A DNA stretch of 33,555 nt, taken from positions 1-33,555 of the forward strand of contig JBBIPZ010000024.1 in the NCBI GenBank assembly GCA_037442505.1, given 5' to 3'. The DNA is from JBBIPZ01 sp037442505 [NCBI: Deltaproteobacteria bacterium]. GTDB taxonomy: Bacteria > CALINM01. A program made the position numbers and the translations under genes. Below are positions 1,426 to 28,192 of the stretch, piece by piece (position 1 is the first letter of the stretch; every line of letters begins with the position of its first letter). The notes under the pieces were generated by a model. That model had not been told where the DNA came from. It ran no database searches and saw nothing but the letters and a program-made list of their open reading frames with translations.

Positions 1426-1436
1426 GGAGAATGTTT

Positions 1437-1823: not shown

Positions 1824-1836
1824 AGGAGGAATTTTC

Positions 1837-2070: not shown

Positions 2071-2072
2071 AA

Positions 2073-2258: not shown

Positions 2259-2280
2259 AAACTTTAATCAAGGAGGTGCC

Positions 2281-11035: not shown

Positions 11036-11986
<951 letters not shown>

Positions 11987-11991
11987 ATTTT

Positions 11992-12837: not shown

Positions 12838-12846
12838 GCGAAAAAG

Positions 12847-13925: not shown

Positions 13926-13936
13926 AAGGACAGAAG

Positions 13937-15676
13937 ATGAATAAGAACTGTGACATTATAGTAGTAGGTGGTGGATTGGCTGGTTTGATGGCAACAATCG
14001 TTGCCTGTGAGAATAACTTAAAGGTAAAACTATTTACTTTACTCCCCGCAAAACGTTCACACTCAGTTTGTGCTCAGGGTGGAATTAACGCATCTTTGAA
14101 TATAAAAGGTGAAGGTGATAGTCCGGATAAGCATTTTTACGAAACGATATATGGTGGAGATTTTCTTGCAAATCAGCCTCCCGTTAAAGAAATGTGTTAC
14201 AACGCACCGGAAATTGTATATTTGCTGGATAGAATGGGGGTTATGTTCAACAGGACACCTGAAGGATTTCTCGATTTCAGAAGGTTTGGCGGGACAAAAT
14301 ATCACAGAACAGCTTTTGCTGGTGCAACAACCGGACAGCAAATATTATATGCCCTTGATGAACAGGTAAGAAGATATGAATATCACGGTCTTGTTGAAAA
14401 ATATACTGGCTGGGAGTTTTTAAGGGCAGTTATAGATGAAGAGGGGTATGCACGTGGGATAGTTGCTGGAAATATTAATTCTCTTGATATAGAAGTGTTT
14501 CCTGCAGACGCAGTAATTATGGCAACCGGTGGATGTGGAATGATATTTGGAAAAAGTACCAATTCAGCGATCTGCACTGGTTCCCCGAATGCAATACTGT
14601 TTCAACAGGGAGTGAAGTATGCGAATGGTGAGTTTATACAGGTGCATCCAACAGCGATAGCGGGGAACGATAAATTAAGATTGATTTCTGAATCTGTTCG
14701 TGGTGAGGGTGGTAGGATCTGGACTTATAAAGATGGGAAACCATGGTATTTCTTAGAAGAGAAGTATCCTGCATATGGGAATCTTGTTCCGAGGGATATA
14801 GCAAGTAGAGAGATTTTTCATGTATGTGTTGATTTGGGGCTTGGCATTGATGGCAAAAATCAGGTTTATTTAGACGTTACACACTTAGATGAGGAATTTC
14901 TTGAATACAAATTAGGTGGTGTTTTGGAGATATATGAAAAATTTATGGGGGAAAATCCCAAAAAGGTCCCAATGAGGGTGTTTCCTGCTGTTCATTATAC
15001 TATGGGTGGGTTATGGGTTGATTATAATCAGATGACAAACATTAAGGGGCTTTTTGCTGCCGGGGAATGTGAGTATCAGTATCATGGGGCAAATAGATTG
15101 GGGGCAAATTCTTTGCTTTCCTGCATACATGGCGGTATGGTTGCCGGTAAAAAGGTTTTTGAGTATGTTCAATCGTTAAGTAAATGTAGTGATGATGTGT
15201 CTACAGACGTATATCAGCAACATAAGCAGGTAGTTGTGGCTAAATTTGAACAGTATAAAAAGATGGAAGGAAAAGAAAACCCCTACAAGTTGCATCAGGA
15301 GTTAGGCGAAACGATGACCGAAAACGTGACCGTAGTTCGCCACAACAAAAAGTTGGCTCAAACGATTGATAAGCTAAAAGAGTTTAGGGAAAGGTTTAAA
15401 AACATAGATGTGCTTGATAAATCTGGCAATGCAAATTATAGCCTATTTTTTGTCAATCAGCTGTGGGGAATGATTGAACTTGCGATGGTTATAACTAAGG
15501 GTGCTTTGCTAAGAAACGAGAGCAGAGGTTCCCATTATAAGCCAGAATTTCCTAACAGAGATGATGCAAATTTTCTGAAGACGACAATCGCAACTTATGC
15601 AGTGGACGAACCGCAAATTAGTTACGAAGATGTTGATGTTTCATTAATAAAGCCCGTTTTAAGGAAGTATGACTGA
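13937..15676 (+). CDS. sdhA: Succinate dehydrogenase/fumarate reductase flavoprotein subunit
   Basis: A 579-aa flavoprotein. The dinucleotide motif is VVGGGLAG (residues 9-16). The covalent-FAD histidine is His42 in RSHSVCAQGG, and catalytic residues lie in VHPTAI, SVRGEGG, VHYTMGG and HGANRLGANSLL. It oxidises succinate or reduces fumarate at the membrane. The AAAGGA site before ATG 13937 and the sdhB ATG overlapping its stop (TGATG) place it inside the sdhCAB unit. It is a useful contrast to the second flavoprotein at 26128, which lacks the histidine. Confidence 0.96.
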   Translation: MNKNCDIIVVGGGLAGLMATIVACENNLKVKLFTLLPAKRSHSVCAQGGINASLNIKGEGDSPDKHFYETIYGGDFLANQPPVKEMCYNAPEIVYLLDRMGVMFNRTPEGFLDFRRFGGTKYHRTAFAGATTGQQILYALDEQVRRYEYHGLVEKYTGWEFLRAVIDEEGYARGIVAGNINSLDIEVFPADAVIMATGGCGMIFGKSTNSAICTGSPNAILFQQGVKYANGEFIQVHPTAIAGNDKLRLISESVRGEGGRIWTYKDGKPWYFLEEKYPAYGNLVPRDIASREIFHVCVDLGLGIDGKNQVYLDVTHLDEEFLEYKLGGVLEIYEKFMGENPKKVPMRVFPAVHYTMGGLWVDYNQMTNIKGLFAAGECEYQYHGANRLGANSLLSCIHGGMVAGKKVFEYVQSLSKCSDDVSTDVYQQHKQVVVAKFEQYKKMEGKENPYKLHQELGETMTENVTVVRHNKKLAQTIDKLKEFRERFKNIDVLDKSGNANYSLFFVNQLWGMIELAMVITKGALLRNESRGSHYKPEFPNRDDANFLKTTIATYAVDEPQISYEDVDVSLIKPVLRKYD

Positions 15677-16416
15677 TGAAGATACGTGTAAAAGTTGAGA
15701 GAAGAGAAACACCGATTTCAACACCTCATTTGGACATCTTTGAGTTAGATGTCGACGAAACAGCCAATGTGATTTCCGTTCTGATGGAAATTAGAAAGAA
15801 TCCTGTTACTGTTGATGGCAGGAAGGTATCGCCTGTTGTTTTTGAGTGTAGTTGTTTAGAAGAGGTGTGCGGTGCATGTACAATGAATATTAATAATAAG
15901 GCAAGACAGGCTTGTAGCGCTCTTGTGAAAGATTTAGGTAGAGAGATTTTTCTTGCACCTCTCAGGAAGTTCCCAATAATAAGGGATCTTGTGGTTGATA
16001 GAAGAAAGATTTTTGCTGGGTTAAGAAGGATAAAAGGCTGGATTCCGATTGATGGTACACACGGAATGGGTCCTGGTCCAAAAGTTTCTGAAAAGATTCA
16101 AAGGATTGGGTACAAGCTTTCGAGATGTATGAGTTGCGGTGTGTGTATGGAGAGTTGTCCACAGGTTAATGATAGGTCTAACTTTATTGGTCCGGCTGTA
16201 ATTGCTCAGGCTTTACTTTTCAATTTACATCCAACCGGGGCAATGATTAAAGAGGATAGATATGAAGCCCTTATGGAAGAAGGTGGAATTGGCGAATGTG
16301 GAAACGCACAAAACTGTGTGAAATCATGCCCAAAGCAGCTGCCTTTGACATACTCTATCGGCAAGCTGAATAGAGACACACTCATTTACAGCATTAAAAA
16401 ACTTTTAGAGTCGTAA
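15676..16416 (+). CDS. sdhB: Succinate dehydrogenase/fumarate reductase iron-sulfur subunit
   Basis: A 246-aa protein with three clusters. The 2Fe-2S cluster uses Cys60, Cys65, Cys68 and Cys80 (SCLEEVCGAC ... ACSAL). The 4Fe-4S uses Cys151-x2-Cys154-x2-Cys157 with a CP at 161-162. The 3Fe-4S is in ECGNAQNCVKSCPK. It passes electrons between SdhA and the heme anchor. An extra cysteine (Cys58) stands just before the 2Fe-2S site. Last gene of the TCA operon; 96 AT-rich bases follow with no clear terminator, so read-through into the Hdr cluster is possible. Confidence 0.95.
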   Translation: MKIRVKVERRETPISTPHLDIFELDVDETANVISVLMEIRKNPVTVDGRKVSPVVFECSCLEEVCGACTMNINNKARQACSALVKDLGREIFLAPLRKFPIIRDLVVDRRKIFAGLRRIKGWIPIDGTHGMGPGPKVSEKIQRIGYKLSRCMSCGVCMESCPQVNDRSNFIGPAVIAQALLFNLHPTGAMIKEDRYEALMEEGGIGECGNAQNCVKSCPKQLPLTYSIGKLNRDTLIYSIKKLLES

Positions 16417-16512
16417 AATTTTTTAGTGGGTGGCACGGTTAGGCATATTTTTTATTTAAAACATTAAAAAAATTTTTCATTTAATTTTTCTTAGTTTCTT
16501 GGGGGGATAAAA

Positions 16513-16926
16513 ATGATACTCGCACTGAACAAAGAGCAGTTCAAAAGTGAATATGCTCGTTCGATAAAAGAAGTCTCTGCGCAAAAAATCATGTCTTGTT
16601 ACCAATGCGGCAAATGCACAGCTGGTTGCCCTCTTGCAGATAAAATGGATTACGTTCCCAACGAGATGATGAGACTGGTAATGTTGGGAGAGATAGAAGA
16701 ACTTTTGCAAAGCAACGCAATCTGGCTTTGCACTTCCTGTTTTCAGTGTGGTACAAGATGTCCTAAAGGAATAGAAGTCCACAGGGTGTTTGAGGCTTTA
16801 AGAAGTCTGGCATTACGAAATGGCATTAACAGAACAGATATAGAGGAGTTGCCTTCAGACATACTTGATGAAGTTCCGCAGCAGGCGATAGTTGCCGGGT
16901 ATAGAAAGTTTGAGTCTCTGGAATAA
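16513..16926 (+). CDS. hdrC: HdrC-like di-[4Fe-4S] ferredoxin subunit (module 1)
   Basis: A 137-aa protein with two 4Fe-4S sets: Cys29, 32, 35, 39 (SCYQCGKCTAGCP) and Cys73, 76, 79, 83 (LCTSCFQCGTRCP). That is the HdrC pattern of heterodisulfide reductase. It carries electrons between HdrA and HdrB. It starts behind a GGGGGGAT site and opens a ten-gene, same-strand Hdr/fumarate-reductase-like cluster. No hydrophobic anchor, so the complex should be soluble. Confidence 0.92.
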   Translation: MILALNKEQFKSEYARSIKEVSAQKIMSCYQCGKCTAGCPLADKMDYVPNEMMRLVMLGEIEELLQSNAIWLCTSCFQCGTRCPKGIEVHRVFEALRSLALRNGINRTDIEELPSDILDEVPQQAIVAGYRKFESLE

Positions 16927-16961
16927 TCGGGCTTAAAGTAAGGGAAAGGAGCTAAAACAAA

Positions 16962-17846
16962 ATGGTAAGTTATCCTTATTTTCCGGGTTGTGCACTTAGC
17001 ACAAAAGCTAAAGCGTTAGATATATGTGCAAGAGAATCATTAAAACTGCTCGGTTTTGAATTGGTAGAGCTTACAAACTGGACCTGTTGTGGGGCTGTTT
17101 TTCCCCTCTGTGATGATGAGCATATCAGGCTCGTTTCCCCGGTAAGGGCGTTGTTTGAGGCATCTAAAACTTCCGATAAGCTTGTAGCGCTTTGTTCTGC
17201 ATGTTTTAACGTGTTGAGAAGGACAGAAAAACTTTTTCGTGAAAACAAAGAAAGACGTGAGAGAGTCTTAAACTATATGGACGAAGAGGTGCCAAAAAAC
17301 TTTGCCGACAATGTTAAAGTTATACATTTTATTGACATTATCGCTGAGGATTTAACTTTTACCGTTTTAAAAGAAAAGGTCAAAAAGCCACTTATAGACT
17401 TGAAAATCGCCCCCTTTTACGATTGTCTCACCTTCAGGCCACCAAAAGAGATGAATTATGACGATCCTGAAAATCCCCGTATATTCTCTAATTTTCTAAT
17501 GTCGTTGGGTGCTACACCGATAGATTTTCCATATAGAAGCGAATGTTGTGGGGCTCATTTAGCTGTAAGTGATAGAGATGCATCCTTAGAATGCTCGTAT
17601 AAAATTTTAAAAAGTGCTGCTGATGCTGGTGCAGAGGCTATGCTTACTGCTTGTCCTCTTTGTCATTATAATCTGGATAGCCGTCAATTGGAGATGATGG
17701 AGAAGTTTCCTGGATTTAAGCCTTTGCCAGTGTTTTACCTGACGCAGCCGCTTGGTATCGCTCTGGGGCTTTCTACTGAGCTACTTGGCTTTAGTAAAAA
17801 CAAAATTTCCCCACTTCCTCTCCTTAAAGAGAAGGGGCTTATTTAG
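16962..17846 (+). CDS. hdrB: HdrB-like CCG-domain subunit (module 1)
   Basis: A 294-aa protein with two CCG domains: Cys10, Cys42-43, Cys78, Cys81, then Cys155, Cys195-196, Cys231, Cys234. In HdrB these bind two noncubane 4Fe-4S clusters that cleave the CoM-S-S-CoB disulfide. The whole cysteine set is present, so a disulfide- or thiol-type substrate, or a quinone-independent electron exit, is plausible. The natural substrate in a bacterium without methanogenesis is unknown. The second domain reads YDCLTFRPP rather than the usual GCxxxRP. The GGAG site precedes ATG 16962. Confidence 0.9.
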   Translation: MVSYPYFPGCALSTKAKALDICARESLKLLGFELVELTNWTCCGAVFPLCDDEHIRLVSPVRALFEASKTSDKLVALCSACFNVLRRTEKLFRENKERRERVLNYMDEEVPKNFADNVKVIHFIDIIAEDLTFTVLKEKVKKPLIDLKIAPFYDCLTFRPPKEMNYDDPENPRIFSNFLMSLGATPIDFPYRSECCGAHLAVSDRDASLECSYKILKSAADAGAEAMLTACPLCHYNLDSRQLEMMEKFPGFKPLPVFYLTQPLGIALGLSTELLGFSKNKISPLPLLKEKGLI

Positions 17847-17854
17847 GAGTTGTT

Positions 17855-19804
17855 ATGAAAAAGGTTGGGCTTTTTATCTGTCATTGTGGCAGTAATATTG
17901 CTGGAACTGTTAATATAGAAAAAGTTAAAAACTACTTTTTAAGCGAGAAGGGCATAACGGTATCTGATGATTACAAATATATGTGCTCAGAGCCGGGTCA
18001 GAAAAAGTTAAGGGATGCAATTACTGAAAAAGAGTTAAACGGTGTGGTGGTTGCATGTTGCTCCCCTCGTATGCACGAAATTACATTCAGAAATGCTGCA
18101 TTAGCTGCAGGTTTGAATCCCTATCAGGTAGAAATCGCCAATATAAGAGAACAATGCAGCTGGGTTCATCAGAAAGATAAAGAAAAAGCAACAGAAAAGG
18201 CTATACAGATAATCAAGACAATGATTGAGAAGGTAAAAAGAGATGAGCCTTTAACTCCCATAGAGTTTGATATAACAAAAAAAGCGTTGGTCATTGGTGG
18301 TGGAATAGCAGGTATTACTGCTGCAGTCGATATTGCAAATGCTGGATATGAAGTGATACTTGTTGAGAAGAAACACTCTATAGGTGGCAAGATGCTACAG
18401 CTTTCAGAAACGTTCCCCACTTTAGACTGTGCCCAATGTACGTTAACGCCGAAAACTGTTGAGGCTGGTAGACATCCGAAAATAAAGCTTATGGTTTATT
18501 CACAGTTAGAGGAGGTTAAAGGTTACATTGGCAATTTTGATGTAAAGATAAGAAAAAAGGCATCTTATGTTGATTGGTCAAAATGTACTGGATGTGGATT
18601 ATGTCAGGAAAAGTGTCCAACAAAAACTGAATCTGAATTTGACAGAGGTATTGGAGAGAGAAAGGCGATTTATACGCTCTCACCACAGGCTGTCCCAAAT
18701 AAGCCAATAATAGATAAAGAAAGTTGCAGATTTTTTAGAGAAGGTAAGTGCAGGGTTTGTGAGAAGGTATGTCCTGTAGGTGCTATTAATTACGAAATGA
18801 AAGACGAAGTTATCGAAGAAAAAGTAGGTGCGATTGTAGTTGCAACTGGATTTGATGTACTGGATGTGGAAAAAATACCTGAATATGGTTATGGGGTGTA
18901 TCCAGATGTCATAGATGGACTCCAGTTTGAACGTTTGAACTCTGCGTCAGGCCCAACCGGTGGCGAAATTAGAAGGCCTTCTGATGGGAAGGTGCCAAAA
19001 GAGGTCGTTTTTATTAAATGTGTTGGTTCGAGAGACCCTGAAAAAGGCATCCCGTATTGTTCAAGGATCTGTTGTATGTATCTGGGAAAACATGCGCGTT
19101 TATACAAACACAAAGTTCCGGATGGTCAAGCATATCTGTTCTATATGGATATACGTTCGTTTGGTAAAGGATACGAAGAGTTCATTCAACAGTCAATGGA
19201 AGAAGCAGATCTTTTGTATATACGTGGTCGCGTTGCGAGGATTATGCAAGAAGGAGACAAACTTGTTGTTTGGGGTGCAGATACTTTATCAGGTAGAAAG
19301 GTAGAAATTAAGGCTGATATGGTTGTGCTGGCAACAGCAGCGGTCCCATCAAAGGGTGCAAAAGAGTTAGCAAATGTATTGAGAACAGCTACGGACGAAT
19401 ATGGTTTCTTCAGCGAAGCACACATTAAACTAAAACCAGTTGAGAGTATGACAGGTGGTATTTATCTGGCGGGGTGTGCTCAATCTCCAAAGGATATTCC
19501 AGATACGGTTGCACAGGCAGGTGCTGCGGCAGCTAAAGTACTTTCACTTTTTGGACAGGAAAAGATGGTGCAGGAGCCACTTGTAGCCTTTGTAGAAGAA
19601 GATTTATGTAGTGGTTGTGGGCTTTGTGTTACTGCCTGTCCTTTCGATGCAAGGCAGGTAGATGTTGATACGAAGATTAGTCTGGTTAATGAGGCGTTGT
19701 GTCAGGGTTGTGGTGCCTGCGTTTCAGTGTGTCCAAACAAGGCTTCTAAACTACGAAATGCTAAGCCAGAAACTTATATGGCTATGCTTGAAAAATACTT
19801 ATAA
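17855..19804 (+). CDS. hdrA: HdrA-like FAD/[4Fe-4S] subunit (module 1)
   Basis: A 649-aa protein of canonical HdrA layout. The N-terminal domain has CHCG (residues about 10-13) and CCSPRMHE. The FAD domain starts with LVIGGGIAGITAA near residue 145. The TLDCAQCTLTPK cysteines follow, then an inserted ferredoxin (CTGCGLCQEKCP, CRVCEKVCP), and finally two C-terminal 4Fe-4S motifs (CSGCGLCVTACP, CQGCGACVSVCP). HdrA is the flavin-based bifurcation subunit in known complexes. It sits nine bases after hdrB with a TAGGAG site. All cluster ligands look intact. Confidence 0.93.
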   Translation: MKKVGLFICHCGSNIAGTVNIEKVKNYFLSEKGITVSDDYKYMCSEPGQKKLRDAITEKELNGVVVACCSPRMHEITFRNAALAAGLNPYQVEIANIREQCSWVHQKDKEKATEKAIQIIKTMIEKVKRDEPLTPIEFDITKKALVIGGGIAGITAAVDIANAGYEVILVEKKHSIGGKMLQLSETFPTLDCAQCTLTPKTVEAGRHPKIKLMVYSQLEEVKGYIGNFDVKIRKKASYVDWSKCTGCGLCQEKCPTKTESEFDRGIGERKAIYTLSPQAVPNKPIIDKESCRFFREGKCRVCEKVCPVGAINYEMKDEVIEEKVGAIVVATGFDVLDVEKIPEYGYGVYPDVIDGLQFERLNSASGPTGGEIRRPSDGKVPKEVVFIKCVGSRDPEKGIPYCSRICCMYLGKHARLYKHKVPDGQAYLFYMDIRSFGKGYEEFIQQSMEEADLLYIRGRVARIMQEGDKLVVWGADTLSGRKVEIKADMVVLATAAVPSKGAKELANVLRTATDEYGFFSEAHIKLKPVESMTGGIYLAGCAQSPKDIPDTVAQAGAAAAKVLSLFGQEKMVQEPLVAFVEEDLCSGCGLCVTACPFDARQVDVDTKISLVNEALCQGCGACVSVCPNKASKLRNAKPETYMAMLEKYL

Positions 19805-19815
19805 AAAGGTTGCCA

Positions 19816-20334
19816 ATGAGTAGTAGGTTGCTATTGGACGTTAATAATATTACAGAACAGGAACTTCGCTTGTGTTACCAGTGTCAGAAGTGTACAGCTA
19901 CGTGTCCCGTTTCGGAGTTTATGGATATAAAACCTGATGTGGTAGTAAGAAAGGTTATTTTTGGCGAGGATGAATCTTTATTTCGCTCAAAAACAATATG
20001 GTTATGCACCGGTTGTGATACATGTGGTAGCAGATGTCCAAACCTTATAAGTGTTGGCAAAATTAACGAGTTTTTAAGGGAAACTGCTGTTAAAAAAGGT
20101 GTAGAACCTGCAGTGCCAGCAGCTTATGCGGTTCATAAGGCGTTTTTAAACAGCATTGAACGCTTTGGTATTGTTCACGAGGCTTCGATGCTTGCAGAAA
20201 TGAAACTCAGAACAAAAGATTTTTTTAGTGACATTGCGTTGGGTTTAAAAATGTTTTTAAAAGGTAAAATTCCATTGTTACCACATAAAGTTAAAGCTTT
20301 TGATGAAATAAAGAGGATGTTTAAGGCAAAATGA
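19816..20334 (+). CDS. hdrC: HdrC-like di-[4Fe-4S] ferredoxin subunit (module 2)
   Basis: A 172-aa second HdrC. The first cluster is Cys20, 23, 26, 30 (LCYQCQKCTATCP); the second is LCTGCDTCGSRCP at about residues 63-75. It is longer than the module-1 copy because of a basic C-terminal helical tail. ATG 19816 is preferred over TTG 19810 because an AAGG site (19806-19809) is correctly spaced for it. The stop overlaps the ATG of the next hdrB (20331). The two HdrC copies are divergent, so this is not a recent duplication. Confidence 0.9.
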   Translation: MSSRLLLDVNNITEQELRLCYQCQKCTATCPVSEFMDIKPDVVVRKVIFGEDESLFRSKTIWLCTGCDTCGSRCPNLISVGKINEFLRETAVKKGVEPAVPAAYAVHKAFLNSIERFGIVHEASMLAEMKLRTKDFFSDIALGLKMFLKGKIPLLPHKVKAFDEIKRMFKAK

Positions 20335-21158
20335 AAACGATCAGTTATTTCCCTGGATGTACATTGAGTTCCACTGCTTATGAGTATGGAGATTCGGCTT
20401 TAGCGGTAATAAACAAACTTGGGTTCAAGCTGGAAGAGATACCAGATTGGAATTGTTGTGGCGCTGCATCTGCTAAAAGTCTTGACCACAGTTTATCTAT
20501 TTTAATTCCTGCAAGAAATCTTAAGAATGCCGCTATGTTACAAGGCGATATTTATGTTCCCTGTGCAGGTTGTTATAACAACCTTATGAAAGCAAAACGT
20601 GCTTTAGAAAATAAAGAAAAACGAGCAAAAGTAGAGGCTGTTTTTGGAACTGTTTCAAGGATACCTGAGGTTTTTCCATTGATGAATCTGTTTCTGGATA
20701 AAAACGTGCTTGCATTGTTAAGTAAATCTTCTCTTTCTACAAATGTTAAGGTTGCTGCTTACTATGGTTGTGCCTTTTTAAGACCAGATGACGTGTTAAG
20801 GAATGAAAATCCTGAATTGCCTACTTCCATAGACAAAATAATCAATGCTGTTGGTGTACAGACTGTTGATTGGCCACTTAAATCATTTTGTTGTGGTGGT
20901 GATTTAAGTCTTGCGGATAGTAAGGTAGTGTCTAAGCTTTCTAACAAGATAATCAGTTATGCAAAAGAGGCTGGGGCAGAAGCTATCGTTACTGGTTGTC
21001 CTCTTTGTCAGGCAAATTTAGAAATGAGACAGACTGAGCAGTTTCCGATTTTTTATTTTACAGAAATATTAGGTATCGCTTTAGGGGTTGACAAAGATGT
21101 ATGGTGGAAAAAACATCTTGTTGACCCAGCTTATGTTGTTAAAAAACTAAAAGGTTAA
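20331..21158 (+). CDS. hdrB: HdrB-like CCG-domain subunit (module 2)
   Basis: A 275-aa protein with two complete CCG domains: Cys10, Cys42-43, Cys78, Cys81, identical spacing to module 1, then YYGCAFLRP, FCCGGDLSLA and GCPLCQANL. This copy is closer to textbook HdrB in the second domain (GCxxxRP) than module 1. It is translated by ATGA overlap from hdrC. Two different HdrB subunits in one operon suggest two noncubane-cluster sites, possibly serving different acceptors. Confidence 0.92.
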   Translation: MKTISYFPGCTLSSTAYEYGDSALAVINKLGFKLEEIPDWNCCGAASAKSLDHSLSILIPARNLKNAAMLQGDIYVPCAGCYNNLMKAKRALENKEKRAKVEAVFGTVSRIPEVFPLMNLFLDKNVLALLSKSSLSTNVKVAAYYGCAFLRPDDVLRNENPELPTSIDKIINAVGVQTVDWPLKSFCCGGDLSLADSKVVSKLSNKIISYAKEAGAEAIVTGCPLCQANLEMRQTEQFPIFYFTEILGIALGVDKDVWWKKHLVDPAYVVKKLKG

Positions 21159-21168
21159 GGGGATTACG

Positions 21169-23748
21169 ATGCCTGAACCTATCGTTATAATTGGATCTGG
21201 TTTTTCTGGTTTAGCGGCTGCTTTTCATTGTGCAGAGTTTGGACAAAAGGTTGTTATACTTGAGAAAAAACAAGATTTAGGTGGCTATTTTAAAGAGCTT
21301 AAAAGACAGTTTCCTACAAACTCCTGTGGAGTTTGTTTTATGCATCCGTCTTATCCTGCTTACTGTCCTCACATCGAGGCTTCTATTCATCCTAACATCG
21401 TGGCTATTACAAAGGCAGATGTTCTACAAATTAAAAAATCTGATACCGAGTATGTAATTAAGTTTAGACATAACAGTGAAGAGAAACATTTAAAAGCATC
21501 TGCGGTTATATTGGCAACTGGTTTTGATGTGTTTGATGTAGCGAAAAAGCCAGAATATGGTGGAGGTATTTACGATAATGTATTGTCCGCAATAGATATG
21601 GAACGCGCAATATATGAACATTTTTCTACGGGACGAAAACTATCTTTTGGAAATATTGCATATATTCAGTGTGTAGGTTCAAGAGATCTAAAATCAGGTG
21701 CGCCTTACTGTTCTTCTTTTTGTTGTATGTTTGCGATTAAGCAGGCAATGCTTTTAAAAGAGTTGGATAGCGAAGCAGACATCACAATCTTTTATATGGA
21801 TATTCGTGCATTTGGCAAAGATTACGAAAGATACTATTTAGAGGCAAAAAACAGAGGTATTAAGTTTGTTCGTTCCGCCGTTGCAACGGTCAGAAAGAGA
21901 CCGGCAACAGGCAGACTTGAGCTTTTATATACATATAACAGCGAGCCCAAAGAGGAAGTTTTTGACACAGTTGTTCTTTCTCAGGGTGCCAGATATGATG
22001 AGCAGACACTTAAGCTTTTAGCAGAACTGAATGTTACACCAGATTTTTATAGTGATACACCGTTTAAAGATAGAGAAATTGCAGAAAATATTTACATTGC
22101 AGGCACAGCCTTTGAGCCGATGGATATTCCTGATTCTGTTATTGACGGAGCTTATGTAGCATCAAAAATACTTGAAAATCGAGGATTTTTTACTCAACAA
22201 GCAGATTTGCCAAAGGTAAAGCTATCTAAGGTGAAGAAGATTGGACTGGTTGCTTATGCGGTTGATAATAATAATTTTAAATCCTTGAAAGACAACTATC
22301 CTGATATGCTACTTGTAAAAAATGTTGATGAATTAAGATTTTATATAGAGCAAGATTCCCCTGATGGTGTAGTAGTTGTAGCAGATGATATAAGAAGTAT
22401 TGAAGCAAAGTTTAAGCATTTAAACTATTTTGGCATGCATATTAACTCAGTCTTTTTTGTTCCTTTAGTCAGTAATGATGATATCAAGCAGGAAATTAAT
22501 TCAGCGATTTTTCGCATAAAAAATGTAAAAAAACAACATTACCAGACGAGACACATAAATCAGAAGGTATTGGTTATAGGTGGTGGCATTGCAGGGCTAA
22601 CCGCTTCTAAAAAGTTGTCTCGTTCAGGTTTTGACGTTATTCTTGTGGAAAAAGAAGATGTTTTGGGCGGCATGGCTCTAAAAATCGAGGATAAAAAGGT
22701 CTACATAAACAAGCTTGTCTCTGACCTTGAAAGCGAGAATAAGGTAGAGATATTAAAAGGTTTTGAGGTAAAGAATGTTGCCGGCAGGTTTGGTGATTTT
22801 AAATGTGTTGCAGAATCCAGGAGTGAAAAAAGGGAGTTTAAGGTTGGTGCGATACTTATAGCTACTGGCGGTACTGAAAGAAAGAATGTTTTGCCTTGCG
22901 AGGATGGTGTTAAGGTCTTTTCAGCCTTTGATTTTGAGACAAATAAGGAAAAAATAGCTTCATCAAGAAACGTCGTTATGTTGCAGTGTGTGGGTTCGAG
23001 AACACAGGAAAATCCAGTTTGTTATCGAGTTTGCTGTCAAAAAGCTATAAAAAATGCGATTTTTCTAAAAACTAAAAATCCTGAACTAAATGTTTATATC
23101 CTGCATAAAGATATAAGGACATATGGGTTTCGCGAAAATATATACCGTGAGGCGAGGAAGCTTGGAGTGAACTTTGTCAGATTTAGTGAACAGCCACAAA
23201 TAACAGTAGACAGTGAACAGGTTAAAATTTCTATGGTAGAAGAAGGGACAAACCAGCAAATTGGTCTTGTTGCAGATTATCTTATTCTTTCGACGGGAAT
23301 TAATCCCAACACAGATAATTTAGCTGTTAATGTTGACCGAGAGCTTGGTTTCATCGTTCCATATAATAAAAAGTCTGGAATTCTGGATGTTGCAAATGGT
23401 ATCTTTGCTGCAGGTTTGTGTGTCGCTCCAAACTATTCCGACGATGTGATAAAGCAGGCAGAGGTGGCTGCTTTAAGGATTGCGTTAAAGCTTTCGAAAA
23501 GACAGCTGGTAACAAGGTTTGATACAGCATTTGTGAATGAAAGATACTGTTGTGGTTGTGAATTGTGTATTAAGGCTTGTCCAGTTTCAGCAAGATATCT
23601 TGATGAAGAAAAGAAGATAGCCAAGGTTGACGAAACGCTCTGTGAAGGGTGTGGAACATGTGCTATGGTTTGTGCCAACAAGGCAAGTCAGCATAAACTG
23701 TATGAGCATAAGAGCATGCTGAAAACTATAGATATGCTGTTAGGATAA
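21169..23748 (+). CDS. hdrA: Double HdrA-like flavoprotein: two FAD domains, one degenerate N-domain, two terminal ferredoxin motifs
   Basis: An 859-aa protein with two HdrA cores. Core 1 (about 1-345) begins VIIGSGFSGLAAAFH, has NSCGVCFMHPSYPAYCPH and CVGSRDLKSGAPYC, and ends GTAFEPMDIPDSV. Residues about 355-460 (KKIGLVAYAVDNNN...GVVVVADD) resemble the HdrA N-terminal domain, but every cluster cysteine is missing. Core 2 begins at about 465 (KVLVIGGGIAGLTASKK) and lacks the DCAQC cysteines. The C-terminus has CCGCELCIKACP and CEGCGTCAMVCA. Core 1 may carry FAD plus a cluster, and core 2 FAD alone. It sits 10 bases after hdrB. Confidence 0.88.
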   Translation: MPEPIVIIGSGFSGLAAAFHCAEFGQKVVILEKKQDLGGYFKELKRQFPTNSCGVCFMHPSYPAYCPHIEASIHPNIVAITKADVLQIKKSDTEYVIKFRHNSEEKHLKASAVILATGFDVFDVAKKPEYGGGIYDNVLSAIDMERAIYEHFSTGRKLSFGNIAYIQCVGSRDLKSGAPYCSSFCCMFAIKQAMLLKELDSEADITIFYMDIRAFGKDYERYYLEAKNRGIKFVRSAVATVRKRPATGRLELLYTYNSEPKEEVFDTVVLSQGARYDEQTLKLLAELNVTPDFYSDTPFKDREIAENIYIAGTAFEPMDIPDSVIDGAYVASKILENRGFFTQQADLPKVKLSKVKKIGLVAYAVDNNNFKSLKDNYPDMLLVKNVDELRFYIEQDSPDGVVVVADDIRSIEAKFKHLNYFGMHINSVFFVPLVSNDDIKQEINSAIFRIKNVKKQHYQTRHINQKVLVIGGGIAGLTASKKLSRSGFDVILVEKEDVLGGMALKIEDKKVYINKLVSDLESENKVEILKGFEVKNVAGRFGDFKCVAESRSEKREFKVGAILIATGGTERKNVLPCEDGVKVFSAFDFETNKEKIASSRNVVMLQCVGSRTQENPVCYRVCCQKAIKNAIFLKTKNPELNVYILHKDIRTYGFRENIYREARKLGVNFVRFSEQPQITVDSEQVKISMVEEGTNQQIGLVADYLILSTGINPNTDNLAVNVDRELGFIVPYNKKSGILDVANGIFAAGLCVAPNYSDDVIKQAEVAALRIALKLSKRQLVTRFDTAFVNERYCCGCELCIKACPVSARYLDEEKKIAKVDETLCEGCGTCAMVCANKASQHKLYEHKSMLKTIDMLLG

Positions 23749-23760
23749 TTTGGAGGAGTT

Positions 23761-24183
23761 ATGGAAGATTTTGAACCAAAGATAGTCGGTTTTTTGTGTA
23801 ACTGGTGCACATATACAGGGGCAGATTTAGCTGGAACTGCCAGAATACAGTACCCGCAGAATATAAGGGTTATTAGAATGATGTGCTCTGGTGGGGTTGA
23901 TATGGTATATGTAATGAAGGCTTTACTTGAAGGTGCCGATGGTATTTTAATTGGCGGATGCCATCCGGGTGACTGTCATTATCAGAGTGGTAATTTTAAA
24001 GCAAGACGTAGAGTTGCAATTTTGAAAAAGATTTTAGAAGAGTTGGGTTTTGAAAAGGAACGCGTATGGCTAAAATGGATTTCTGCAAGTGAAGGTAAAA
24101 AGTTTGCAAATACTGTTACGGAAATGGTAGCGCATCTTAAAAAGTTGGGACCAAATCCTCTTAAAACACTTGGAAAAATTTAA
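23761..24183 (+). CDS. mvhD: MvhD/FlpD-like [2Fe-2S] electron-transfer subunit
   Basis: A 140-aa protein with the MvhD signature: CNWC (Cys13, Cys16), MCSG (Cys42) and GGCHPGDCHY (Cys67, Cys72). It binds a 2Fe-2S cluster and, in methanogens, links HdrA to a hydrogenase or formate dehydrogenase. Here no hydrogenase gene is present; the next gene encodes an FrhB/FdhB-like protein instead. Start has a GGAGG site. Confidence 0.95.
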   Translation: MEDFEPKIVGFLCNWCTYTGADLAGTARIQYPQNIRVIRMMCSGGVDMVYVMKALLEGADGILIGGCHPGDCHYQSGNFKARRRVAILKKILEELGFEKERVWLKWISASEGKKFANTVTEMVAHLKKLGPNPLKTLGKI

Positions 24184-24201
24184 AAACAGAGGTAACGATA
24201 A

Positions 24202-25305
24202 ATGGCTAAGGTTTTTAATGTTTCTTCGATTTTGGATTTTAAAGATATCCTGAAAAAGGCTCTCGAAGATAAAATCTTTGATGCTATTCTGGGGCTTTTC
24301 TGGATGCCTTCAAATGATATGTTAACGCTCGAATTGACATCGGAAATAGATGAGGTTGATAAACTAGAGATTATTGCTCCTATTATGCCCGTTCAGGCAG
24401 CAAGGGTGATTTCTAATATAAAGTTTACCGAAAGTAACCTGAAAATTGCCTGCATAGTTAAGCCTTGTGAACTCAGGGCTTCTGTTGAACTTATTAAACT
24501 TAAACAGATTATGCCGGAAAATTTATTTTTTATAAGTTATGACTGTGGAGGTGCAGTTAACGTAGCTGATTTTAAAGATGCAGTTAATAAAGGTAAAAAC
24601 TATATTGACGAGATTTTAAATTGTAACAAAAATTTTGAAGATTTTTCAGCAAAACACGACAAAATAAGATTTGCCTGCAGCGTTTGTGATAAGTTTATTC
24701 CATCGCTTTGCGATATAAGGATTAGAAGCTTTGGTAGCAATATTTTGCTACAACCAATGACTCAAAAGGGAGAATCGTTTTTATCTGGAATGAAGCTTGA
24801 ATCTGGAGACAAAGACTTATCTGAATATGAAAACAGGATCAGTACAATATTAGATGCGAGAAGGAACAATAGGAACAAAGAAAGGGAAATATTTAGATCT
24901 CAAGTTAATAGCATTGATGCAGTTTTAAAAGAACTTTCGTCATGCATAAGATGTCATAACTGTATGACCAACTGTCCGTTGGATTACTGTAAGGAGTGTA
25001 TATTTAAAACACCTGTTTTTGACCATCCGGTCGAAAACTATGAATTGTGGTTAAACAGAAAGCGGGTAGTTAAACTCCCTACAGATACCCTGTTGTTTCA
25101 TTTAACGAGATTGAACCACATGAGCAGCTCCTGTGTGTCCTGTGGGGCTTGTGAAAGTGCCTGTCCAGCTGGCATAAGGGTATCGAGAATGTTTATGTTT
25201 TTGGGTGAGGATGTCCAGAAAATTTTTGATTATGAACCTGGCAGGAGTTTACAGGAAGAGTTGCCTGTTGCAACGTTTAGAGAAAAAGAGTTAGAAAAGA
25301 TATAA
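24202..25305 (+). CDS. FrhB/FdhB-like (coenzyme F420 hydrogenase/formate dehydrogenase beta-type) Fe-S protein
   Basis: A 367-aa soluble protein. The segment IACIVKPCELRASVEL (residues about 90-105) matches the family's flavin/4Fe-4S region. Further cysteines lie at RFACSVCDKF, SSCIRCHNCMTNCPLDYC and SSCVSCGACESACPAGIRVSRMF. In known complexes such subunits contact F420 or NAD(P)H or pass electrons from formate dehydrogenase. No FdhA-like or hydrogenase catalytic subunit is visible here, so the electron donor or acceptor is unknown; NAD(P)H or a ferredoxin are possibilities. It is 18 bases after mvhD. Confidence 0.75.
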   Translation: MAKVFNVSSILDFKDILKKALEDKIFDAILGLFWMPSNDMLTLELTSEIDEVDKLEIIAPIMPVQAARVISNIKFTESNLKIACIVKPCELRASVELIKLKQIMPENLFFISYDCGGAVNVADFKDAVNKGKNYIDEILNCNKNFEDFSAKHDKIRFACSVCDKFIPSLCDIRIRSFGSNILLQPMTQKGESFLSGMKLESGDKDLSEYENRISTILDARRNNRNKEREIFRSQVNSIDAVLKELSSCIRCHNCMTNCPLDYCKECIFKTPVFDHPVENYELWLNRKRVVKLPTDTLLFHLTRLNHMSSSCVSCGACESACPAGIRVSRMFMFLGEDVQKIFDYEPGRSLQEELPVATFREKELEKI

Positions 25306-25325
25306 AATAGCAGGAGGTTTTCGAT

Positions 25326-26096
25326 ATGAAAGGAATACTTCTCACAGGAGACAAGCCTGTAATACCAGAAGGAACCAGATTTATTCCAGTTTATATAATG
25401 GGAAAAAGGTATATGATTCCTGAAAGCCTTACCATTCAAAAGGCTTTTGAATACGCAGGTTATAGATGGATAAGAGGTTGTGGTTGTAGAGGTGGGATAT
25501 GCGGTGCCTGTTCAACCGTTTATAGAATAATGGGGGATCACAAGCTTTATTTTGGACTTGCCTGTCAGACAGTTGTAAAAGAAAATATGGTTTTAGCCCA
25601 GATACCTTTTTATCCTTATAAAAGAAAGCTTCACGATGTAGAAAATCTTGAGCCAACGGCAGAGACGATGGCAAAAATATATCCCGAAATAATGAAGTGT
25701 GTTGGATGTAACACCTGTACTCGTGCTTGTCCAATGGATATCAAAGTTATGGATTATATAAATGCTGCGATAAGAGGGGATATTGAACGGTGTGCAAGGC
25801 TATCTCTTGACTGTATAATGTGTGGTCTTTGCACTTCAAGATGTCCAGCTCAGATAACACATTACAATGTGGGCATGTTGGCAAGAAGGTTAACGGGTGC
25901 AAAACTCTTTCAAAAGGCAACTCATTTAAAAGCAAGAGTTCAGGAGATAGAATCAGGAAAGTATCTGCCATTTATGAAAGAGCTGATAGAGATTTCTGAT
26001 GAAGAACTGAAGCGCCGTTATGTTGAGGAAAGAGAGTGGGAACCATTGAATTCCAAAGAAGTTAATTGGAAGCCTCAAGACGAAAGATATTTGTAA
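25326..26096 (+). CDS. SdhB/TfrB-like [2Fe-2S] + 2x[4Fe-4S] iron-sulfur protein
   Basis: A 256-aa protein. A plant-type 2Fe-2S domain uses Cys54-x4-Cys59-x2-Cys62-x17-Cys80. Two 4Fe-4S motifs follow: Cys125, 128, 131, 135 and Cys163, 166, 169, 173. A charged tail of about 60 residues ends the protein. It resembles the N-terminal part of thiol:fumarate reductase subunit TfrB, but without that protein's C-terminal CCG domain, which the HdrB subunits could supply. It lies directly before the matching flavoprotein, behind an AGGAGG site. In sdhB the third cluster is 3Fe-4S; here it looks like a full 4Fe-4S. Confidence 0.85.
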   Translation: MKGILLTGDKPVIPEGTRFIPVYIMGKRYMIPESLTIQKAFEYAGYRWIRGCGCRGGICGACSTVYRIMGDHKLYFGLACQTVVKENMVLAQIPFYPYKRKLHDVENLEPTAETMAKIYPEIMKCVGCNTCTRACPMDIKVMDYINAAIRGDIERCARLSLDCIMCGLCTSRCPAQITHYNVGMLARRLTGAKLFQKATHLKARVQEIESGKYLPFMKELIEISDEELKRRYVEEREWEPLNSKEVNWKPQDERYL

Positions 26097-26127
26097 TAGA
26101 AATCACTTTAAAAAAGGGGTGAAAAAA

Positions 26128-27780
26128 ATGTCAGGTTATCCAGAGTATTTAAGAGAATCTATAAAACTTGTAGAAAAAACACGTGCTGCAAGGGTAGAAA
26201 AGTCAAAAAGAGGAGAAATTTTTAAACCACTTTCTATGGATGGAAGGAAAGAAGTGCTTTCAAAATTTCATCCGGATTATATGGAAGGCACAAAGCGTAT
26301 TGTTAATGTTGGACCTGATAAGGGGAGCCTTTTTCCTAACGAGTTGGCAGACTTATTAGAGGCTCACAGCAGAATAAATCCGAAAGAATTTAATCTAAAA
26401 AATCCAGATATACAAACAGATGTGCTTGTAATTGGTGCTGGTGGTGCTGGTTCTTCTGCGGCGCTTCTTGCAGCAGAGAAAGGTTGCAAGGTAATTCTTG
26501 CAACAAAGCTCCGTCATGGTGATGCCAATACGGTTATGGCTGAGGGGGGTATTCAGGCTGCGGATCAGGAAGTAGATTCTCCTTATTACCATTTTCTCGA
26601 TACGATGGGGGGTGGACATTTTTTAAATGACAGAAGGATTGTTGCTGCGCTCACCTCAGATGCCCCGATTGTTGTTTCATGGTTAGAAAGATTGGGAATG
26701 ATGTTTGACAAAGAAAAAGATGGCAGGATGAAGGTAAGACATGGTGGTGGAACGTGTAGGAAAAGGATGCACTCCTGTGGCGATATGACTGGTTCTGAAA
26801 TAATGAGAGTTTTAAGGGATGAGGTCAGGAATCATCCTGAAAAAATTGATGTACTTGAGTTTTCTCCAGCAGTAGAGCTACTTCTTGATGAAAATGGTAA
26901 ATGTGGAGGCGCCATACTTTATAATTTAGAGACCGAAGAGTATATCATTGTCAAGGCTAAGGCGGTTGTGATGGCTACTGGTGGATTTGGCAGGCTTCAT
27001 TTTAATGGATTCCCGTGCACAAATCACTATGGGGCAACGGCAGATGGTATAGTTATGGCTTATCGTGCAGGTATAAAACTTAGGTTTATGGATTCTGTTC
27101 AGTATCATCCCACTGGTGTTGTATTTCCAGAGCAAAATGTTGGACTTTTGATAACAGAAAAGGTGAGAGGTTTAGGGGCTACATTATTAAATAAGAATGG
27201 TGAAGAGTTTGTGTTTCCGCTTGAGCCGAGAGATGTTGAATCTGCCTGTATAATCAGGGAATGTACTGAGCGTGGAAACGGAGTAATGACTCCAACAGGT
27301 AGATTGGGTGTCTGGCTCGATTCACCAATGATCGATATGTTAGAAGGAGAGGGTACGGTCAAACGTGAACTTCCTGCAAAATACATACAATTTATAAGAC
27401 ATGGCATTGATATATCTAAAGAACCTATGCTTATATTTCCAACAGTTCATTATCAAAATGGTGGTTTGTGGATGGATGAAAATGCTGCAACAGAGATTCC
27501 TGGCTTGTACAGTGCAGGCGAAGTATCAGGTGGTGTTCACGGTAGAAACAGATTGATGGGCAACTCCTTGCTTGATATTCTCGTTTTTGGGAGAAGGGCG
27601 GGGCTGGCTGCGGCAGAGTATGTGCAATCATCAAACATAGCTGCTCTAACACTGGAACACATTGAAAAATATGAAAAAGAGCTTAAAGAGGCTGGAATAG
27701 TCACTAATAGGGTGTCCCCAATGATACTGCCGGATTATATTCGTGAGGAAGTGAAAGAAAAACGTAAAATAAAAATATGA
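26128..27780 (+). CDS. Fumarate-reductase/TfrA-type flavoprotein with non-covalent FAD
   Basis: A 550-aa flavoprotein of the SdhA/FrdA/NadB superfamily. A basic N-terminal extension of about 95 residues precedes the FAD motif VLVIGAGGAG (99 on). Asn134 (ANTVMAEGG) replaces the histidine that binds FAD covalently in SdhA (His42 in the neighbouring sdhA), so FAD should be non-covalent. Catalytic residues for fumarate/succinate chemistry are kept: QYHPTG, KVRGLGA, TVHYQNGG and HGRNRLMGNSLL. TfrA or an aspartate-oxidase-like role is possible. ATG 26128 is used; the GTG at 26119 overlaps the GGGG ribosome-binding site. Last gene of the cluster. Confidence 0.85.
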   Translation: MSGYPEYLRESIKLVEKTRAARVEKSKRGEIFKPLSMDGRKEVLSKFHPDYMEGTKRIVNVGPDKGSLFPNELADLLEAHSRINPKEFNLKNPDIQTDVLVIGAGGAGSSAALLAAEKGCKVILATKLRHGDANTVMAEGGIQAADQEVDSPYYHFLDTMGGGHFLNDRRIVAALTSDAPIVVSWLERLGMMFDKEKDGRMKVRHGGGTCRKRMHSCGDMTGSEIMRVLRDEVRNHPEKIDVLEFSPAVELLLDENGKCGGAILYNLETEEYIIVKAKAVVMATGGFGRLHFNGFPCTNHYGATADGIVMAYRAGIKLRFMDSVQYHPTGVVFPEQNVGLLITEKVRGLGATLLNKNGEEFVFPLEPRDVESACIIRECTERGNGVMTPTGRLGVWLDSPMIDMLEGEGTVKRELPAKYIQFIRHGIDISKEPMLIFPTVHYQNGGLWMDENAATEIPGLYSAGEVSGGVHGRNRLMGNSLLDILVFGRRAGLAAAEYVQSSNIAALTLEHIEKYEKELKEAGIVTNRVSPMILPDYIREEVKEKRKIKI

Positions 27781-28155: not shown

Positions 28156-28192
28156 AAAACCCTGCTTATAAGATTTAGGCAGGGTTTTTTTT
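28156..28192 (+). terminator. Rho-independent terminator of the cold-shock gene
   Basis: AAAACCCTGC (28156-28165) pairs perfectly with GCAGGGTTTT (28179-28188), with a 13-base loop and eight T from 28185. It overlaps the stop codon of the opposing lipoprotein gene (28191-28193) and may also slow its transcript, although the minus-strand side has only four T. Confidence 0.92.

Follow-up and report, generated by a model that had tools for sequence, protein, structure and literature searches.

A candidate soluble Hdr-coupled fumarate reductase encoded in one unit with fumarase and a membrane-type succinate dehydrogenase in a Deltaproteobacteria bacterium

Introduction

As a rule, organisms couple the reduction of fumarate to quinones in the membrane. 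For tubeworm symbionts and for Pseudoclostridium, publications of 2019-2020 put forward a link of TfrAB to Flx-Hdr (PMC6315080, PMC7282089). As far as the available text of these sources goes, the 'succinate operon' of Pseudoclostridium thermosuccinogenes brings together fumarase, an Hdr bifurcation complex and fumarate reductase, and is assumed to couple succinate formation with ferredoxin reduction, and Koendjbiharie and van Kranenburg (preprint, 2019) are cited there (PMC7282089); in tubeworm symbionts and Thioflavicoccus, flxABCD-hdrABC, tfrAB and korABCD are found in rTCA clusters, and the authors suggest one complex (PMC6315080). The accessible parts of two further sources describe a Cloacimonadota cluster of TFR, OGOR, Hdr and Mvh hydrogenase (PMC8542988) and HdrL of Desulfobacterium autotrophicum, an Hdr/glutamate synthase fusion (PMC2702500). 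In the literature surveyed, as far as its available text extends, no biochemistry or purified complex for such a set was found, and the exact phrase 'bifurcating fumarate reductase' gave no match in the literature searched.

Here we analyse a locus in a window of 33,555 nucleotides, the whole stretch of DNA studied (contig JBBIPZ010000024.1), in which Hdr genes adjoin a TfrBA pair. The original prediction considered the pairing of Hdr with a fumarate reductase in one operon to be the feature that deserves attention. The pairing is indeed present, but it is already in print. Compared by published description rather than by sequence, P. thermosuccinogenes takes electrons from NADH via Flx, whereas the window unit has no FlxA/FlxB; it has in turn a double HdrA, two HdrCB, an FdhB-like adaptor, mdh and sdhCAB. 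The window TfrA is 56-57% identical to those of tubeworm-endosymbiont, Thiococcus and RIFOXYD12 loci, and Hdr and MvhD/FlxD are common to them; however, loci of the tubeworm type carry Flx and Kor (L040, L041, L046, L049), whereas the window unit has neither but includes sdhCAB. TfrBA with Hdr genes is also common to the window and the Cloacimonadota cluster, as far as the latter is described. There, MvhAG hydrogenase is the likely donor, whereas the window unit is without MvhAG; we found MvhG in Cloacimonadota loci L010, L020, L045 and L055 and in Neomarinimicrobiota loci L012, L036, L042 and L059.

The HdrABC-MvhD-FdhB systems of Methanospirillum (7bkb) and Methanothermobacter (8rvu) have the HdrB, HdrC and MvhD families in common with the window, whose HdrA and FdhB-fold adaptor match their chains. 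In contrast to these systems, the window unit has a double HdrA and no FdhA, and its exit is TfrBA instead of CoM-S-S-CoB; to our knowledge, bacteria would not be expected to have CoM and CoB. The TfrA model of the methanogen thiol:fumarate reductase TfrAB is the best NCBIfam match of the tenth protein of the cluster. Methanogen TfrB has a C-terminal CCG thiol site, whereas the window TfrB is without a CCG domain and CCG motifs are found on separate HdrB proteins. HdrL of D. autotrophicum, set beside the window HdrAA by description only, is likewise a long HdrA-type protein followed by mvhD, and some hdrA/hdrL loci have a formate dehydrogenase B gene, but the available description includes no TfrBA pair (PMC2702500).

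Results

The ten predicted open reading frames are real: all are on the + strand (as are all features given below), at 16513-27780, and neighbours are -4 to 35 bp apart. Their naming was mostly right, the exception being the ninth protein, which is only partly an 'SdhB'. The cluster does not start at 16513, since six same-strand genes (mdh, fumA, fumB, sdhC, sdhA and sdhB) precede it, never more than 96 bp apart. The result is a 16-gene same-strand unit, mdh-fumAB-sdhCAB-hdrCBA-hdrCB-hdrAA-mvhD-frhB-tfrBA (11036-27780). One related genome (G002) keeps it in full and another (G001) up to its contig end, both also beginning with mdh, and because it is kept in relatives, the gene order is beyond chance. 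Identity between the window and G002 is 88-89% for TfrA, HdrA (89%) and MvhD and 87% for TfrB, against 69-73% for HdrB and HdrC, 56% for the FdhB-like protein and 52% for HdrAA. A terminator-like hairpin (28156..28188; 13-pair stem, then a T run) lies 3' of tfrA; it has the longest stem of this type in the region, where such sites are no more numerous than in shuffles.

The unit opens with malate dehydrogenase of the lactate/malate type (11036..11986; PF00056 6.8e-44, PF02866 1.2e-35), fumarase alpha FumA (11992..12837; PF05681 2.8e-114) and fumarase beta FumB (12847..13398; PF05683 8.4e-58). The membrane anchor SdhC (13395..13925) matches PF01127 below cut-off (5.5e-4) and has four hydropathy maxima above 1.6. 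It is followed by SdhA of the Bacillus (menaquinone) type (13937..15676; NF006392 1025 bits, cut-off 855), which also exceeds the cut-off for TIGR01811 sdhA_Bsu (775.7 vs 541), and by SdhB (15676..16416; NF006391 372 bits, cut-off 244; Fer2_3 2e-26). The Bacillus succinate enzyme uses menaquinone, and the SdhCAB found beside the Hdr-Tfr genes is of the membrane quinone-linked SDH/QFR kind. Citrate synthase, sought by PF00285 alone, had no match in any of three close genomes, which are MAGs of unstated completeness; G002 encodes 2-oxoacid:acceptor oxidoreductases.

Both copies of HdrC have two CxxCxxCxxxC motifs and match their models below cut-off (16513..16926, TIGR03290 3.1e-23; 19810..20334, TTG start, NF041890 2.1e-19). 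The two HdrB copies match PF02754 and have complete CCG motifs, at residues 10 and 155 in the first (16962..17846; TIGR03288 2.4e-49, below cut-off) and at residues 10 and 147 in the second (20331..21158; PF02754 8.1e-25). HdrA (17855..19804) is full length and not fused to MvhD; its residues 3-632 align to 5odc_A (3.6e-204), and the N-domain, the FAD domain, the inserted and C-terminal ferredoxin domains and the ligand motifs are all present, even though all NCBIfam HdrA models stay below cut-off (best HdrA2, 772.6 bits vs 1100). HdrA models match both halves of the double HdrA, HdrAA (21169..23748), a single chain that combines two HdrA FAD units; both units carry a C-GSR...C...CC motif, and of the CxxCxxCxxxC motifs only the C-terminal pair is present; relatives of 995-998 aa (G004, G080, G116) retain the first ferredoxin insert and the middle N-domain. 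Features of HdrABC-MvhD complexes are thus found in both copies of HdrB (two CCG) and HdrC (two [4Fe-4S]) and in MvhD. The CCG subunits had been predicted to be disulfide sites, a role that is not needed, as electron carriage alone may suffice.

On the electron-entry side, the MvhD/FlxD subunit (23761..24183; PF02662 1.6e-55) is followed by an FdhB/FrhB-like adaptor in the FlxC position (24202..25305; PF04432 8.4e-6). In structure comparison the adaptor has the fold of FdhB (7bkb_E, TM 0.75; 8rvu_E, 0.72, both from Hdr complexes), and it is 20-24% identical to proteins in the FlxC position. FlxABCD-HdrABC is therefore represented by FlxD (MvhD) and a FrhB-like protein in the FlxC position, but not by FlxA: Pfam and NCBIfam revealed no FlxA, FlxB or MvhAG among the ten cluster genes. 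PF10418 has one match in each of the three closest genomes (MAGs, which may be incomplete), and since a pyrD-like ORF, judged by eye, adjoins it, the match is probably PyrK rather than FlxA. Entry of electrons from NAD(P)H, as had been proposed, consequently finds no support.

The TfrB-like protein (25326..26096) has no CCG domain and no SdhB-type Fer2_3 match in Pfam, and HdrC chains are the first matches of its structure model, so that of the label 'SdhB/TfrB-like' the TfrB part holds and the SdhB part does so only partly. C54, C59, C62 and C80 are spaced as for [2Fe-2S], and C125, C128, C131, C135 and C163, C166, C169, C173 form two CxxCxxCxxxC motifs for [4Fe-4S]; all twelve are kept in 66-67 of 67 alignment rows, the remainder being a gap or X. 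The TfrA-like flavoprotein (26119..27780; PF00890 3.8e-82) has about 95 residues ahead of the FAD domain and no Succ_DH_flav_C match. Its best NCBIfam model, NF004900 TfrA, scores 361 bits vs a cut-off of 718, short of equivalog level. The dicarboxylate-site residues, which we take to be H232, E245, R248, R287, H355 and R390 in E. coli FrdA, are present as in the SDH/fumarate reductase flavoprotein superfamily: H330, E347 and R350 are conserved in 70/70 rows, R371 in 69 (1 gap), H444 in 67 (3 gaps) and R478 in 66 (3 gaps, 1 L). The row with L is L060, where the ORF is split in two. At the position of the covalent-FAD histidine there is N137, Asn in all 69 rows with a letter. Judged from these residues, the fumarate/succinate active site of TfrA is intact, whereas the histidine for covalent FAD attachment is missing. 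Across all ten proteins, TfrB and TfrA included, the 19-residue hydropathy never exceeds 1.57. A membrane quinone-linked SDH/QFR was rejected for TfrBA, as both the covalent-FAD His and a membrane-type segment are missing, and so was 8-methylmenaquinol:fumarate reductase, SdhABE (NF042965 155.6 and 152.9 vs 500; NF042982 242.6 vs 1100).

Within one order (210 genomes), HdrA is present in all 21 genomes with close TfrA and in 2 of the 189 others (Fisher p 6e-27, kinship of genomes ignored), lying at most 7.1 kb from close TfrA in 20 of the 21. Thirteen further genomes were picked in which the Hdr set beside TfrBA is missing or incomplete; HdrA is found in all of them, in one case only as a short HdrA-like stretch with 35% identity. 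Across 69 loci, TfrB adjoins TfrA in 65 and at least one Hdr/MvhD gene is seen in 54. The other 15 speak against coupling, but in 12 of them the contig breaks off no more than 4 kb away in one direction or both; L061, L064 and L065 are the exceptions. In some loci tfrBA lies between hdrB and hdrA, followed by flx genes (L111, L112), or inside hdr genes (L006); in G080, and across two contigs in G004, the set follows mdh-fumAB and is itself followed by sucCD. Twelve genomes have no TfrA other than that of a cousin TfrBA pair, 46-50% identical; in 11 of them HdrA gave no match at 1e-100. The cousin pair directly precedes a NuoF-like NADH subunit in 3/3 scanned loci, and it has no labelled Hdr neighbour except, in L107, an HdrB-like CCG gene belonging to a divergent SdhAB-like set. 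That the pair adjoins NuoF there makes TfrBA look like a module that is portable. The expectation that the last two genes always travel with Hdr genes therefore applies to the close family (21/21 and 13/13 genomes) but fails for the NuoF-linked cousin.

Discussion

The original prediction of a soluble Hdr-type complex tied to a fumarate-type flavoprotein is borne out by low hydropathy, catalytic residues, the 21/21 co-occurrence and the neighbours; fumarate is suggested as the substrate because the latter are mdh, fumAB or sucCD. The likeliest function, as far as sequence can indicate, is that of a soluble Hdr-coupled fumarate reductase, which probably bifurcates to fumarate and ferredoxin. 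For a soluble Hdr-type electron-transfer complex with a fumarate reductase exit that bifurcates to fumarate and ferredoxin, we estimate a probability of about 0.62. By analogy with known families, from which bifurcation by HdrA, entry through MvhD and the electron route are inferred, an electron pair would pass from a cytoplasmic donor through the FdhB-like protein and MvhD to the FAD of HdrA, where it would be split. One electron would travel over HdrC, HdrB and TfrB until it reaches the non-covalently bound FAD of TfrA, where fumarate would be reduced to succinate; the second would be passed on to ferredoxin by way of the C-terminal ferredoxin domain. The double HdrA and the second HdrCB might, at a guess, provide an additional electron branch or serve for docking. 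This reading is favoured by the full-length alignment of HdrA to a solved bifurcating HdrA, the complete CCG and HdrC motifs, MvhD, and an adaptor with the FdhB fold of two Hdr supercomplexes. Counted against it are the absence of FlxA, FlxB and MvhAG from the cluster, the weaker conservation of HdrB and HdrC, expected on the path, compared with the other supposed core subunits, the NuoF-linked cousin, the membrane SdhCAB already in the lineage and, in the available text on Endoriftia, expression of tfrAB out of step with the rest of the rTCA/Hdr-Flx cluster (PMC11636981).

At the sequence level, a bifurcating complex would be indistinguishable from a simple donor:fumarate reductase. Hdr might merely wire NADH, formate or ferredoxin to TfrBA with no reduction of ferredoxin, much as the cousin pair beside NuoF suggests, yet the retention of the full HdrA with its ferredoxin domains and the constant presence of HdrA with close TfrA in the order make this unlikely. 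We find it improbable that two separate enzymes are co-expressed, an Hdr complex working on ferredoxin or a thiol/disulfide carrier and an independent TfrBA: complete CCG motifs in both HdrB copies, TfrBA that at times does not adjoin Hdr and the mention of a DsrC-like carrier in the available part of PMC11636981 would fit, but tfrBA lies within hdr genes in L111, L112 and L006, and close TfrA without HdrA was not found at the genome level in the tested order. The system could also run in reverse, oxidising succinate and combining its electrons with those of reduced ferredoxin on the donor-side carrier. Hdr chemistry is reversible in principle, and SdhCAB and fumarase adjoin. With standard potentials of +33 mV for fumarate, -320 mV for NAD and -420 to -500 mV for ferredoxin, the reductive direction yields, by calculation from these values, about -33 to -49 kJ per fumarate with NADH as donor; reverse running is therefore uphill, and as SdhCAB could already oxidise succinate, we regard it as very improbable. 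A different dicarboxylate substrate for TfrA, for instance that of an enzyme resembling L-aspartate oxidase, is scarcely credible: TfrA aligns well with L-aspartate oxidase (5kxj_A), matches TIGR00551 (295 bits) and has most site residues in common, but the TfrA model scores higher (361 bits), TfrB adjoins in 65/69 loci and the neighbours are mdh, fumAB, sdh or suc.

What is new relative to the available descriptions is an unusual and enlarged layout: a double HdrA, two HdrCB, an FdhB-like subunit for entry where neither FlxAB nor a hydrogenase is present, and a menaquinone-type SdhCAB in one unit with Hdr-Tfr. One may be tempted to see the double HdrA, the second HdrCB and the FdhB-like protein as an entry unit unlike Flx, Mvh and Fdh, and SdhCAB and Hdr-Tfr as a fumarate/succinate loop that joins bifurcation to the membrane, but we consider the odds to be long. 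In such a loop one enzyme would work on the menaquinone pool and the other on ferredoxin, two diffusible metabolites would serve as the connector, and no membrane Hdr or Rnf link would be required. For the coupled, bifurcating reading, the co-occurrence result and the compact operons L111 and L112 provide concrete targets for an idea that, by the sources available, has been in print since 2019. In vivo, such a complex might feed succinate into reductive 2-oxoglutarate synthesis and reduced ferredoxin into the 2-oxoacid:ferredoxin oxidoreductases of a lineage in which no citrate synthase domain was detected. If fumarate is indeed the exergonic acceptor, reduced ferredoxin would be made alongside succinate, and the energy balance of succinate fermentation and of reductive TCA steps would shift.

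Results

All ten ORFs of the Hdr-MvhD-FrhB-Tfr cluster named in the original prediction exist on the plus strand at 16513-27780, and Pfam and NCBIfam profiles place them in the families as named; taken as a whole, that reading was right in its observation and is supported in part in its interpretation. The ten ORFs are the 3' end of a longer same-strand unit whose first gene is mdh, from 11036, and whose order according to ORFs and profiles is mdh-fumA-fumB-sdhC-sdhA-sdhB-hdrC-hdrB-hdrA-hdrC-hdrB-hdrAA-mvhD-frhB-tfrB-tfrA. Intergenic gaps across the 16 genes range from -4 to 96 bp, a stem scan places a terminator-like hairpin 3' of the unit (28156-28188), and promoter-like sites are fewer in the region than in shuffled sequences. 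Elsewhere in the window, Pfam matches outline a likely arsenic/metalloid cluster at 472-4128 (ArsP-type permease, DUF2703, ArsR-type regulator, ArsC-like LMW phosphatase and SBF-family transporter), and one minus-strand protein (28998-30476) joins Memo and AMMECR1 domains behind an N-terminus that by eye looks lipoprotein-like.

The search of genomes for the ordered gene set, proposed with the original prediction, used the three closest relatives, G001, G002 and G003, as the phylum comparison set. G002 carries the complete unit order, spread over loci L072 and L002 on the same contig, and G001 keeps it as far as the contig end, inside hdrAA; frhB-tfrB-tfrA stands at a contig start in both G001 (L001) and G003 (L003), and for G003 there was no HdrAA match among the matches listed. 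In another phylum, HdrAA matches at ≤1e-100 occur in at least 3 of 297 genomes (G004, G080 and G116), a lower bound since the best three candidates per genome were scored. The order hdrC-hdrB-hdrAA-mvhD-frhB-tfrB-tfrA-sucC-sucD is found in G080, G116 and, over two contigs (L106 and L004), G004, the SucC and SucD identities in L004 being named by profile models. Upstream of the Hdr-Tfr set, G080 and G004 have mdh-fumA-fumB-hdrC, and the G116 contig ends within hdrA. In two lineages, then, the unit spans consecutive reactions that begin with oxaloacetate and end in succinate or succinyl-CoA.

The window HdrA aligns over its full length to solved HdrA, each HdrB copy carries two CCG motifs, both of them complete, and each HdrC copy carries two [4Fe-4S] motifs. 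In HdrAA, the double HdrA, the FAD motif and the C-GSR...C...CC cluster motif each occur twice, and the ferredoxin motifs are the C-terminal pair only. The HdrAA proteins of G004, G080 and G116 (995-998 aa) include the first ferredoxin insert, and an N-domain separates their two halves. In each of G080 and G004 HdrA is itself split over two ORFs (pairs at L104:12741-16262 and at L106:5166-8233), one ORF of the pair being without the N-domain and C-terminal ferredoxin and the other without the inserted ferredoxin, which is the layout of the fused double HdrA downstream. MvhD domains lie inside longer ORFs through one in-frame TGA, possibly selenocysteine, in G001, G003 and G004, and one HdrA of G021 also has a single in-frame TGA.

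On the exit side, the fumarate/succinate site of TfrA is kept: H330, E347 and R350 are present in 70/70 alignment rows, R371 in 69, H444 in 67 and R478 in 66, the remainder being gaps and one Leu at R478, from a locus (L060) where the TfrA ORF is broken in two. All 69 lettered rows have Asn where E. coli FrdA has its covalent-FAD histidine. NadB was rejected as an identity for TfrA, its profile scoring lower than the TfrA model. TfrB has conserved cysteines, four plus eight, and the first fold matches of its model (mean pLDDT 82) are HdrC chains, with low whole-chain TM-scores of 0.32-0.34. That protein 9 (TfrB) is an ordinary SdhB was rejected: there is no Fer2_3 match and HdrC is ahead in fold matches, where the chain at rank 11 belongs to a respiratory supercomplex that includes complex II.

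On the entry side, the model of protein 8, the FrhB-like adaptor (mean pLDDT 77), shares its fold with FdhB in Hdr complexes from two methanogens (TM 0.75 and 0.72), and the protein is 20-24% identical to proteins in the FlxC position. Profiles for FlxA found none in the ten-gene cluster, and PF10418 matched once each in G001, G002 and G003, beside an ORF resembling pyrD. Formate dehydrogenase was rejected as a general donor, a strong PF00384 match occurring in G002 only, with an in-frame TGA; further PF00384 matches in all three relatives (1e-12 to 1e-16) are over the cut-off. Among 69 loci with close TfrA relatives, FlxB is found in 20, MvhG in 9 and the MvhA label in 10, including L003, whose hydrogenase is of another type judging by its small subunit. 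In L003 (3328-6166, SKW305) a NiFe hydrogenase lies directly 3' of tfrA, its small subunit carrying an extra C-terminal domain. The FrhB-like protein is the only donor-type label in one group of loci, which includes the window's relatives. Donor-module labels cluster on the TfrA tree (20 changes vs a shuffled mean of 38; rows <480 aa, 5/71, excluded), a clustering that near-copies help and in which loci cut short blur the labels.

Whether TfrBA travels with Hdr was addressed at two scales. A single pattern-based scan for close relatives yielded the 69 loci, which are a biased sample; genes were labelled by phmmer best match to window proteins and reference ORFs, with spurious ORFs in high-GC loci, and organism names such as 'Cloacimonadota' are as given in records. 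TfrB adjoins TfrA in 65/69 loci, and an Hdr or MvhD gene lies within the locus in 54/69. Of the 15 loci lacking one, 12 have a contig end <4 kb away on at least one side; the others are L061, L064 and L065. In 13 genomes chosen for a missing or incomplete Hdr set at the Tfr locus, an HdrA match at ≤1e-60 exists there or elsewhere in 13/13, extends over >600 residues in 10 and is only a short 35% match in G016; HdrB is found in 12/13.

The second scale was the order of Thiococcus (G008), with 210 genomes. Close TfrA (E ≤1e-190) occurs in 21 genomes, and HdrA (E ≤1e-100, fixed before the HdrA search) occurs in 21/21 of these and 2/189 others (Fisher p 6e-27, kinship ignored); the two lie on one contig in 20/21, 53-7037 bp apart. 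Positives are lower bounds, up to six TfrA and five HdrA candidates being scored per genome, and the 1e-190 split was chosen after two identity classes (55-67% and 46-50%) had been seen; without it, HdrA is found in 22/33 genomes with TfrA at 1e-130 vs 1/177 others. In L111 and L112 tfrBA sits between hdrB and hdrA, followed by flx genes. The operon in these loci (L111:7601-16818, L112:7060-17004) is compact, hdrC-hdrB-tfrB-tfrA-hdrA-(mvhD)-flxC-flxB-flxA, and contains no korABCD, mvhD being called in L111 and not in L112. The check proposed with the original prediction, whether the last two genes always accompany Hdr genes, comes out in favour for close TfrA in this order but against for the cousin class, which 12 genomes of the order have alone (46-50% identical, matching from about residue 40), with HdrA at 1e-100 in 1/12.

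Discussion

An Hdr-coupled fumarate reductase is already known as a prediction. In the parts of the sources retrieved, tfrAB and korABCD are interspersed among flxABCD-hdrABC and one complex is suggested (PMC6315080), a model repeated in PMC11636981 with tfrAB as an exception to the common expression pattern. A succinate operon of fumarase, Flx-Hdr and fumarate reductase is described in PMC7282089, which refers to a 2019 preprint about a fumarate reductase that may take part in bifurcation. PMC8542988 reports a Cloacimonadota genus with TFR, OGOR, Hdr and Mvh together, and for Thiomargarita and its relatives PMC4914600 notes frdA/sdhA 5' of hdrA and mvhD. Within the text so retrieved, the literature search found no description of a double HdrA with two HdrCB, an FdhB-like entry and an embedded SdhCAB.

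Taking standard redox potentials, we estimate about -33 to -49 kJ/mol for 2 NADH + fumarate + oxidised ferredoxin -> succinate + reduced ferredoxin, so that bifurcation by the predicted complex is possible thermodynamically. As to the metabolic setting, ATP citrate lyase carries a citrate synthase domain, and both citrate synthase and an ATP citrate lyase with this domain were rejected for the close relatives (PF00285 in 0/3). G002 encodes CODH catalytic subunits at L081:5411-9110 (TIGR01702 over cut-off) and in L083; the L081 subunit lies 3' of ORFs that by eye resemble an NAD-linked oxidoreductase and a ferredoxin.

Identities between the window and G002 differ by protein: 87-89% for HdrA, MvhD, TfrB, TfrA and Mdh, 73-83% for SdhA, SdhB, FumA and FumB, 69-73% for HdrB and HdrC and 62% for SdhC, with the lowest values in the FdhB-like protein (56%) and HdrAA (52%). 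Because of these differences we read the HdrA-MvhD-Tfr core as probably constrained and the entry side as labile, a reading from sequence into which the middling HdrB and HdrC values fit untidily.

The cousin TfrA retains the window residues at all seven checked positions in four loci, with TfrB 5' of it. In three scanned loci (L107:8346-11932, L110:8129-11683 and L109:7905-11734) cousin TfrB-TfrA lies directly 5' of a NuoF-like NADH subunit (Complex1_51K). Found mostly in genomes without HdrA, and beside NuoF in the scanned loci, the cousin counts against the view that the wider family strictly depends on Hdr, and with its NuoF-like partner it might possibly be a soluble NADH:fumarate reductase without Hdr. 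Our observations suggest a modular TfrBA that is paired with different donors.
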